Part shown: positions 4,632 to 60,204 of the stretch, one piece after another | How the letters are laid out: each line of letters starts with the position of its first letter | Numbering within the stretch: the stretch's first letter is position 1 | Source of the DNA: Sandaracinobacteroides hominis | Lineage (GTDB): Bacteria; Pseudomonadota; Alphaproteobacteria; Sphingomonadales; Sphingomonadaceae | Direction of reading: 5' to 3' | DNA length: 64,000 bases | Assembly: GCF_016464365.1 (NCBI RefSeq) | Contig: NZ_JADCUC010000006.1 | Coordinates: forward strand, 124,001-188,000 | Notes under the pieces: model-generated | Databases searched by the model: none | What the model saw: only the letters and a program-made list of their open reading frames with translations | What the model was told of the DNA's origin: nothing | Translations under genes and position numbers: made by a program

Positions 4632-4671
4632 GCCGGTGTCGGCGGTTGGATCCGGCCGGCGGCTGAGCCGC

Positions 4672-4830
4672 CGAGTCCGGTTTGGGTTTAAGGAAAGAAG
4701 CAAAAGAAAGGTGCGGGCCAAGCCCGCTCGTCGGACGAGTCAAAAAGGCGGGGTTCTGCCCCGCCCTTTTGCTCGCCGGCCGTGTCTCCAGCGAGTCTGT
4801 GCGTTAGCGCTTTGCGCTAATCACAGCCGC
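4672..4830 (+). repeat. Modular intergenic repeat, copy A
   Basis: This region shares an ordered series of blocks with 59662-59848: GAGTCCG then GTTTGGG, AAGGAAA, AAGCAAAAGAAA, a short GC hairpin with an AA-containing loop (GCGGGC/GCCCGC here), GTCGGAC, a second GC hairpin, GCCGGCCG, GCGAGTCTG, and a hairpin TTAGCGC-TTT-GCGCTAA (4804-4820) followed by CAGCCGC. It sits between convergent genes. The shared order with diverged hairpin arms and conserved single-stranded blocks suggests a dispersed element with selected structure rather than chance. The second hairpin is the terminator listed separately. Confidence 0.7.
4747..4765. terminator. Bidirectional intrinsic terminator
   Basis: The stem GGCGGGG/CCCCGCC closes a TTCTG loop, is preceded by AAAAA and followed by CTTTT. 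The flanking A and T tracts let it act on both strands, which fits its place between the FAD oxidoreductase (+) and the SWIB gene (-). Confidence 0.8.
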
Positions 4831-5085
4831 TTACGACAGATGCTTTGCCAGGTGCTTGTTCATCTCGAACATCGTCACGCTGTCCACGCCGAAAACCGGC
4901 TTCAGCTTCGCATCGGCGTTGATGCGGCGCTTGTCCTTCGGATCCTGAAGATTGTTGGCCTTGATATAGTCCCACACCTTCTTGACGACCTCGCCCCGTG
5001 CGAGCTTGTCGCTGCCGACAACGGCAGCCAGCTGCGGCGAGGGCGTCAGGGGCGTCTGAAGTGCGTTCGGTTTCTTGTCGGCCAT
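4831..5085 (-). CDS. SWIB/MDM2 domain protein
   Basis: An 84-residue protein starting MADKKPNALQ, with a strong GGGAGAGGG ribosome site in front of the ATG at 5085. The single domain covers about residues 14-84: the pattern LQTPLTPSPQLAAVVG, LARGEVVKKVWDYIKANNLQ, RRINADAKLKPVFG and MFEMNKHLAKHL is the SWIB/MDM2 fold known from eukaryotic SWI/SNF subunits and from stand-alone bacterial proteins. The bacterial function is poorly known; a DNA- or chromatin-associated role is usually assumed. It stands alone, convergent to the polyketide cassette, with a long divergent intergenic region upstream. Confidence 0.88.
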   Translation of the reverse strand: MADKKPNALQTPLTPSPQLAAVVGSDKLARGEVVKKVWDYIKANNLQDPKDKRRINADAKLKPVFGVDSVTMFEMNKHLAKHLS

Positions 5086-13650: not shown

Positions 13651-13738
13651 CGCGACGTCTCGCGCCATTGACCGAATCGGGCGGTTGCTCCAAGGCCGGA
13701 CAAGTCGGCGGAAGCCCTGTTCCGGGGCAACCGGCGAC

Positions 13739-13955
13739 GCTGCGGGAGAGTGCGATGCGGGCAACTGCAAAGCCGCCGAAGGAGCAACCGCCCCCGGAAT
13801 CTCTCAGGCCAAAGGACCGCAGCGTCGCTTCGTGTTGAAACGGCAGTCTGGAAAGCGCCCCGGTTCGGGTTTCACCCGGTTTCGCGGCCACCGAAGGGGT
13901 AAGCTGCGACCGTAAAGGTTGCCGTGAAAGCTCTCAGGTCTCGTGACAGGCGGGG
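13739..13955 (+). promoter_or_regulatory. Tandem glycine riboswitch controlling the gcv operon
   Basis: Two aptamers lie in a row. Aptamer 1 (about 13739-13822) runs from GCGGGAGAG through GCCGCCGAAGGAGCAA and CTCTCAGGCCAAAGGACCGC; aptamer 2 (about 13845-13955) has the matching TCTGGAAAGC, CCACCGAAGGGGTAAGC and AAAGCTCTCAGGTCTCGTGACAG blocks. The conserved CCGAAGG(A/G)G and CTCTCAGG elements in both copies are diagnostic. The RNA lies directly upstream of gcvT; family precedent is activation by glycine. A downstream expression-platform hairpin is not clear, but the ribosome site GAGG (13990) is close enough for translational control. Confidence 0.93.
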
Positions 13956-14000
13956 GCGGGCAGGCAGTATATCGCTGCCTTGCAGTCACGAGGTGCGTCC

Positions 14001-43845: not shown

Positions 43846-44118
43846 CTAGGACGTGAACTCCTAAACTGGAGGCGTTTTGATGGCCCGGAGAGGCAAAATC
43901 GGCGTTGGCGCCGGCCGAAGGCGGGGCTTTGCCCCCCGGCGAGGCCGGTGACGGCGTTGATTTTGCCTCTCCGGGCCACCGAAGGCGTGGTTTACAGCCC
44001 CGATCCAGCGCTCGCTGCGCTTGCCAGCTACCATAAGGTAGCCGGACTGCGCTTGCTCACTCGTCTCGGGGCTGTAAACCACGTCAAAATGCCTCCAGTT
44101 TAGGAGTTCACGTCCTAG
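43846..44118. mobile_element. 265-bp MITE-like element with CTAG target duplication
   Basis: The element 43850-44114 has terminal inverted repeats of 31 bases (43850-43880 and 44084-44114) differing at one position, and starts GACGTGAACTCC. Identical CTAG flanks lie at 43846-43849 and 44115-44118. Inside are two more perfect inverted repeats: 19 bases (43882-43900/43959-43977) and 18 bases (43986-44003/44066-44083). It encodes no protein. A 4-base CTAG duplication is the target habit of IS5-family transposases, so it is probably mobilised in trans. It lies 242 bases upstream of the metalloprotease gene, in which space nothing else was seen. Confidence 0.82.
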
Positions 44119-59622: not shown

Positions 59623-59661
59623 GCACGGAATGTGCGCGTGCGGTGGCCGCGGGCAAAGCCC

Positions 59662-59848
59662 GCGAGTCCGTCAGGTTTGGGGAAGGGAGAGATAAGGAAA
59701 AGCCGGGGGGCAGGGGAGGTTAAAAGCAAAAGAAAAAAGCGCAGGCAAAGCCTGCGCCGTCGGACTGGCGGGCAATAGAGATCGCCCGCTCAGCCGGCCG
59801 CGCCTGCGGCGAGTCTGCGAGTTAGCGCTTCGCGCTAATCGCAGCCGC
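59662..59848 (+). repeat. Modular intergenic repeat, copy B
   Basis: Carries the same ordered blocks as 4672-4830: GAGTCCG, GGTTTGGG, AAGGAAA, AAGCAAAAGAAA, hairpin GCGCAGGC-AAA-GCCTGCGC, GTCGGAC, a second GC hairpin (GGCGGGC/GCCCGCT region), CCGGCCGCG, GCGAGTCTG, then TTAGCGC-TTC-GCGCTAA (59822-59838) and CAGCCGC. It has an insertion of about 25 bases compared with copy A. It lies between two genes on the minus strand, just upstream of the epoxide hydrolase. Confidence 0.7.
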
Positions 59849-59856
59849 CTTTGGCT

Positions 59857-60153
59857 TCAGCACTTCTTCGCATTCTTCCCGATCACCGCCCCAGTCAGCG
59901 CCCCGGCACCAGCTACCAGCGCCGTCTCACCCAAACTCCCGCCAGCGATCGCCGCAACAGTGCCGGCGCTTGCAGCCCCAACGACCGCACCGCGCGCCTT
60001 GGACTTGTCCTTGGCCTTCTTGCACTGCTCATAGCTGTCATAGGCATGGCCGTCATAGACCCACTGGGTCTGGTCCTTCTTCTTCGCCACCGCCGGAACG
60101 GTAGGCGCGACAATCGCCATCGAAACAACGGCCAGCACTGCAGCAATACGCAT
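59857..60153 (-). CDS. Exported glycine-zipper protein
   Basis: 98 residues from the ATG at 60153 with GGAATG upstream. A signal peptide (cut after AVA, about residue 23) is followed by a short charged part WVYDGHAYDSYEQCKKAKDK, then a glycine-zipper helix pair: ARGAVVGAASAGTVAAIAGG and ETALVAGAGALTGAVIGKNA. Two Cys residues (one terminal) may form a disulfide. The zipper resembles 17-kDa antigen/OmpA-tail type proteins that sit in the outer membrane; exact function unknown. Confidence 0.75.
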   Translation of the reverse strand: MRIAAVLAVVSMAIVAPTVPAVAKKKDQTQWVYDGHAYDSYEQCKKAKDKSKARGAVVGAASAGTVAAIAGGSLGETALVAGAGALTGAVIGKNAKKC

Positions 60154-60204
60154 GAGAAACATTCCTTTCGCCATTCCAAACCAGAAATTCACCCTCAGGT
60201 TCCC

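Follow-up and report, generated by a model that had tools for sequence, protein, structure and literature searches.

Within the window, i.e. the whole 64,000-nucleotide stretch of Sandaracinobacteroides hominis DNA analysed here, two intergenic regions carry the same short sequence blocks in the same order, together with a TTAGCGC-TTY-GCGCTAA hairpin, and each adjoins the stop codon of a minus-strand gene. The locus raises the question of what such a repeat does at a gene end, and of whether its complementary arms are kept matched for the sake of an RNA structure. A first-pass annotation had proposed a dispersed RNA- or terminator-like element conserved for structure. The two copies, their common block order, the hairpin and the adjoining gene ends are all found where that annotation placed them, although its starts at 4672 and 59662 truncate the first hairpin; the element extends over about 4652-4838 (copy 1) and 59642-59855 (copy 2).

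Architecture of the element

The element is about 190-220 nt long and is built of four hairpins, A, B, C and D, with two fixed linkers and GAGTC bulge motifs; on the plus strand of the window the order is A, a purine-rich spacer, B, CGTCGGAC, C, GCCGGCCG and D (Table 1). Module A is a hairpin with a terminal GAGTC, B a hairpin with an NAA-type triloop, C a hairpin of variable form, and D a long triloop hairpin in which the A and T of GAGTC and a further G are bulged. In copy 1 the pairing of the outer D stem (TGTC/GACA) reaches into the final codons of the SWIB-like gene. A and D can be interpreted as the same local shape in two permutations, GaGtC lying on the 3' arm in A and on the 5' arm in D. 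Folding as gene-strand RNA gives z-scores of -5.6 and -4.9 for the window copies.

Table 1. The two element copies in the window and the genes that they adjoin
Feature	Position	Strand	Basis
Copy 1, module A: hairpin with TGA triloop, then GAGTC (GCC/GaGtC bulge motif)	4652..4680	+	sequence, fold
Copy 1, purine-rich spacer; read on the minus strand, it immediately follows hairpin B as a U/C-rich tract	4681..4712	+	
Copy 1, module B: hairpin GCGGGC-CAA-GCCCGC; terminator-like when read on the minus strand	4713..4727	+	sequence, fold
Copy 1, fixed linker CGTCGGAC	4729..4736	+	sequence
Copy 1, module C: long hairpin flanked by A-tract and T-tract, intrinsic-terminator-like form	4736..4775	+	sequence, terminator rule, fold
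Copy 1, fixed linker GCCGGCCG	4775..4782	+	sequence
Copy 1, module D: GAGTC bulges, bulged G, TTAGCGC-TTT-GCGCTAA tip	4783..4838	+	sequence, fold
Gene with stop codon TAA (4831-4833) inside the base of copy 1 module D; presumably a SWIB/MDM2-like small protein	4831..5085	-	
Copy 2, module A: hairpin with AAA triloop, GAGTC	59642..59670	+	sequence, fold
Copy 2, long purine-rich spacer	59671..59738	+	sequence
Copy 2, module B: hairpin GCGCAGGC-AAA-GCCTGCGC; TTTTTTC after it on the minus strand	59739..59757	+	
Copy 2, fixed linker CGTCGGAC	59758..59765	+	sequence
Copy 2, module C: hairpin CTG-GCGGGCAATAGAGATCGCCCGC-TCAG	59765..59793	+	sequence, fold
Copy 2, fixed linker GCCGGCCG	59793..59800	+	sequence
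Copy 2, module D: TTAGCGC-TTC-GCGCTAA tip; ends 1 nt short of the stop codon	59802..59855	+	
Gene with stop codon (59857-59859) abutting copy 2 module D	59857..60192	-	

The plan holds across the genus. When up to 2 mismatches are allowed, both linkers are present in 142 of 149 genus copies (the 156 copies of the full set minus 7 from other genera, the set used also for module linkage). The D motif reads GAGTC in 127 of these 142 and fits GANTC in 132; since the variants GTGTC, GGGTC, GAGTT, GAGGC and GAGCC also exist, the GANTC methylation site is not strictly required. B is recognised by a strict rule in 120 of the 142, and 74 of those 120 also have A with a GAGTC-like motif; the spacer between A and B averages 79.7% purine over 25 nt in the same 120 copies. 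Some gene ends have two elements, or D modules that face outward (for example C15:231022-/231351+, C12:431022-/431220+).

Copy number and distribution

With up to 3 mismatches the hairpin is matched 5 times in the window, both strands of palindromes being counted (shuffled mean 0.43; 0 of 100 shuffles reach 5). The exact hairpin occurs at 10 places in the 3,530,208-base genome and its reversed-pattern control at none, and all 10 are parts of the same larger element. A covariance model, R1, built from ten D modules finds 52 places in this genome (3.53 Mb), down to E=0.013. A genome match at C17:17724 (E=0.21; locus L064) was fetched and left out of the count; before counting, two short matches on the opposite strand (L035, L032) were removed, as were repeat views of one copy from overlapping loci, two of them at L143/L075.

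At E<=1e-4 the D model matches 9 of 59 genomes (own and relatives): the 6 of the genus without exception, and 3 more from the family. The genus genomes have 46, 14, 73, 30, 9 and 5 matches, the 73 belonging to G002. In a sample of the family 28 of 298 genomes and 11 of 96 genera have matches, a lower bound because the model was trained on one species. Among named genomes an exact pattern scan hits Sandaracinobacter neustonicus PAMC 28131 alone. At the window copies no Rfam family reaches its gathering score, nor does any match for five loci searched against Rfam at E<=1, and the literature library searched yielded no report of such an element in Sphingomonadales or Sandaracinobacter.

A D' subfamily, with a GCGCGGACTCGCGCGTTTTGGC tip and close forms, is almost unchanged in G000 (L047, L050, L051, L054, L058, C21:35849), and its recurrence at several sites of one species suggests recent spread. 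CTGTCCTACA follows D in L042, L047, L054 and L057, and another repeated sequence, GTGTGAAGTTTGTGAAGTTTGCC...CTCCAACAGG with close forms, lies upstream of module A in L023, L050, L058 and L059.

Position at the ends of transcription units

By gene ends called with our own codon-usage script, the neighbour on the D side is oriented towards D in 46 of 52 own copies and in 93 of the 104 from other genomes. Its stop codon falls between -22 and +13 nt of the D stem base in 40 of the 52, and between -36 and +14 in 82 of the 104. In one further own copy (L021) D is next to the 3' end of tRNA-Ala, and by eye two copies from other genera (L155, L158) likewise appear to abut tRNA 3' ends; the element thus marks the end of a transcription unit and not the stop codon as such.

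Between species, 26 orthologous gene ends have the element in common. At the SWIB gene end it is matched in G000 and G003, weakly in G001, and not in G002, G004 or G005; clean empty sites were not obtained, the congener homologs of the two window genes having element-free ends too diverged to define insertion boundaries. By eye, the element follows the GroEL stop codon in 3 of 30 GroEL loci (G000, G004, G015).

Terminator-like signals on the gene strand

The tract after B is U/C-rich on the gene strand, T amounting to 46-66% at most of the first 17 nt in 120 copies. A homemade rule (hairpin plus T-run) applied to gene ends calls a terminator at 69 of the 124 that bear the element, namely at 18 of 41 in the own genome and 51 of 83 elsewhere; the remaining 55 have no T-run terminator by this rule. 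Among other transcription-unit ends in these loci the figure is 8 of 49 (Fisher p=3e-6), and among shuffles 5 of 620. The signal is strongly one-sided: terminators lie on the gene strand of 69 element-bearing ends, on the other strand of 24 and on both of 19, i.e. 50 on the gene strand only versus 5 on the other strand only (sign test p=2e-10), although copies at orthologous genes are not independent and the significance of these tests is inflated. Within the window alone a terminator is found at 1 of 19 other ends, namely on the other side of copy 1. The same rule gives terminators in 27 of the 30 GroEL loci, including G000 and G004, where they lie inside module C. As far as sequence can tell, elements at gene ends probably act as transcription stop signals, and both halves of the first-pass description, dispersed and terminator-like, are supported in that the copies are many, lie at gene ends and have T-rich tracts on the gene strand.

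Covariation and the matching of stem arms

Covariation normally counts as proof that an RNA helix is functional, and the compensatory pattern first seen between two copies extends to the whole family. Of the D cells in 55 distinct own rows, 94.2% are paired, and 221 both-side changes compare with 52 in shuffles; in 104 distinct rows from other genomes 95.2% are paired, and 466 such changes compare with 117. Sliding the partners by 1-3 columns destroys the signal. The outer D stem, which often extends into the final codons of the adjacent gene, is Watson-Crick in 71% of cells versus 34% with partners swapped between copies (99 rows). A repeat confined to two places and devoid of covariation, the outcome that would have counted against the first-pass proposal, did not appear; the covariance search and the comparison with gene ends that it suggested gave instead 52 genomic copies with covarying arms, and D next to a stop codon in 40 of them.

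The mismatches are another matter. A strand-symmetric hairpin finder run on 156 copies gives 4849 Watson-Crick, 17 G-U, 22 A-C and 17 other cells. The inner D stems have 34 G-U and 37 A-C. Mismatch counts are small throughout, and some derive from single positions (in the inner D stems one gives 8 A-C cells, another 18 G-U). In terminators found by one and the same rule, those of the element have 3 G-U and 8 A-C, versus 14 and 0 in the terminators of 27 GroEL loci, two of which lie within the element (p=0.00015), and 8 control terminators at other ends have zero of either. Since G-U and A-C are equally frequent in the stems, a DNA-level process may keep the arms matched, at least partly. Conservation of shape over sequence, as first annotated, is thus supported by the strong covariation, whereas RNA structure as its reason is not shown, stem G-U pairs numbering 17 against 22 A-C. 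The outer D stem, which is partly coding, has 29 G-U versus 14 A-C (p=0.03), an excess such as RNA selection would give.

Orthologous gene ends bear on how the arms change. In 64 ortholog pairs 215 stem cells are changed on both sides and still Watson-Crick, 56 are changed on one side (18 G-U, 24 A-C, 14 other) and 19 on both sides without being Watson-Crick. Ortholog memory is lost in B, whose stems are equal at 6 of 29 orthologous ends versus 23% of random cross-genome pairs, and in D (10 of 38 versus 18%), and is kept in C (8 of 28 versus 5% of random pairs). In 12 of 64 pairs the ortholog resembles the first copy more closely than does any paralog within that copy's own genome, and in 23 of 64 it ranks first in the other genome. 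Within genomes there is no B-D or C-D linkage and a weak B-C linkage in one genome (P=0.03); module exchange is therefore not free for all, since C keeps its ortholog memory and B and C are weakly linked.

Replacement of matched stems as units would fit the ortholog, linkage and mismatch facts best. Template switching has been proposed as a source of compensatory change in RNA genes (PMC8794818, available part); conversion between copies over the fixed linkers is our own suggestion, and the two seem equally open. It is possible, at somewhat less than even odds, that the fast and near-perfect stem covariation, attained without G-U intermediates and in dozens of terminators at once, comes mainly from such a DNA-level process and not from selection on RNA pairing: hairpin cassettes might be swapped by conversion between gene ends, or one arm recopied from the other. 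Whether DNA-level copying alone creates covariation is a question raised for RNA genes in the same part of PMC8794818; with near-perfect covariation in dozens of copies and mismatches without strand preference, the present family can test that source. If true, it would be a natural family whose compensatory covariation arises mainly without RNA-pairing selection.

Selection on RNA alone, for a 3' element made of a terminator and protein-binding hairpins in which G-U is avoided for the sake of a protein or of an exact helix shape, seems unlikely to account for these patterns. It would readily explain why the extrahelical A, T and G and the loop orientation are fixed on one strand, and would go with the covariation of the arms, the strand bias of the T-tracts and the outer-stem G-U excess; the near equality of G-U and A-C in the inner D stems, the contrast with GroEL terminators and the preponderance of both-arm over one-arm changes between orthologs (215 versus 56) speak against it.

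Proposed role at the 3' end

The reading that we prefer, with a probability of roughly 0.55, is that of a dispersed mosaic element at the 3' ends of transcription units in which B (or C) would serve as terminator and D and C as 3'-UTR hairpins, the stems being exchanged as matched units at the DNA level. The element would be read together with the gene that D abuts, so that in the RNA the stop codon would come first, within or next to the D hairpin; C would follow, after it B with its U/C-rich tract, and A would lie past the likely end point. B, or C where a T-tract is present, may act as an intrinsic terminator, and D and C may protect the mRNA at its end or delay the ribosome during termination. 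Both arms of a stem at any one gene end would be replaced at once, by conversion between copies over the fixed linkers or by hairpin-templated repair. Termination, mRNA protection and the exchange mechanism are what we infer from the arrangement; this explanation leaves module A, which lies beyond the terminator, without a role. The copies would offer a collection of natural 3'-end parts, ready for use in a bacterial family, and with D at stop codons effects on translation termination can be tested.

Relation to known repeats and mobile elements

The element resembles REP/BIME sequences, described in the available part of PMC12306157 as dispersed extragenic palindromes of mosaic order at gene ends, some of them next to stop codons where they stall ribosomes; by that account about 11% of the REPs of E. 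coli are no more than 15 nt from a stop codon. The present element is likewise dispersed, extragenic and palindromic, with 52 own copies. Unlike REP/BIME, however, it keeps four different hairpins in one order, its linkers are constant whereas its stems are exchanged, D reaches the stop codon in 40 of 52 copies, a terminator tract is built in, and most carriers are without RAYT. A REP has a short conserved palindrome with a 5' tetranucleotide such as GTAG; no such palindrome and tetranucleotide are found here, the stems varying freely and the fixed letters being GAGTC, CGTCGGAC and GCCGGCCG.

Br-REP1 and Br-REP2 of Bradyrhizobium are likewise alphaproteobacterial 3'-UTR palindromes, present also between convergent genes and across related genera (PMC5082802, available part); by eye the Br-REP2 consensus is unlike the element modules, and that part of PMC5082802 reports no matched stem turnover. 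RIME (Rhizobium-specific intergenic mosaic elements), likened here from a title cited in PMC2873474, are mosaic intergenic palindromes in Alphaproteobacteria as well. Intrinsic (Rho-independent) terminators share the GC hairpin (here B or C) with a T-rich stretch behind it on the gene strand, whereas the element is multi-hairpin and present in many copies with fixed linkers, its U-tract is mixed with C, and A-C is as common as G-U. An integron attC site, considered for the bulges and the stop-codon position, has RYYYAAC and GTTRRRY boxes at the outer stem ends; the element has no such end boxes, and its outer stem is variable, the commonest form being GGCC/GGCC. It may thus be described as a REP/BIME-like mosaic gene-end repeat, nearest to the Br-REPs in place and spread as far as the available part of PMC5082802 describes them, with exchangeable matched stems and a built-in terminator tract as its new features.

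The likeness to REPs leads to a second alternative, of doubtful standing, namely a non-autonomous mobile DNA element whose ends A and D would be single-strand hairpins recognised by a transposase, terminator activity being a side effect. Copy number does vary among congeners, gene ends such as that of SWIB have the element in one species and not in another, and the D' subfamily is almost unchanged at several G000 sites; the GCC/GaGtC bulge motif common to A and D in opposite permutation and the strand-symmetric mismatches would also suit mobility. RAYT (Y1) transposase genes are flanked by two inverted REPs (PMC2817692, available part). A cognate RAYT was sought and set aside: PF01797 is matched in 1 of 6 genus genomes, in G000, where the gene is frameshifted and the 1.2 kb read around it holds no element, and G002 with its 73 copies has no match, so that 5 of 6 carrier genomes have no Y1 transposase. 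The 26 shared orthologous gene ends likewise tell against mobility, target duplication is not visible, and insertion so near stop codons would need a very specific target.

E. coli REPs have been proposed as DNA structure sites, and a cruciform, gyrase or nucleoid-protein target between convergent genes, with termination incidental, would agree with the strand-symmetric complementarity and with a convergent left neighbour in 33 of 52 own copies, but is very improbable given the strongly one-sided T-tracts and the 14 of the 52 in which the left neighbour and the right gene share a strand.

Other features of the window and genome

A weak Y1/RAYT-like transposase match, in two overlapping and apparently frameshifted frames, lies at L011 1010-1641 (G000 C12, about 418 kb). 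The window holds at 43846-44118 a 273-bp MITE-like stretch with 35-nt near-perfect inverted ends, whose end sequence TTAGGAGTTCACGTCCTAG occurs 11 times in the genome at <=1 mismatch (control 0), once within the D tip of copy C1:853189, where a second repeat family meets the four-hairpin element. Tandem glycine riboswitch aptamers lie on the plus strand of the window at 13733-13959.
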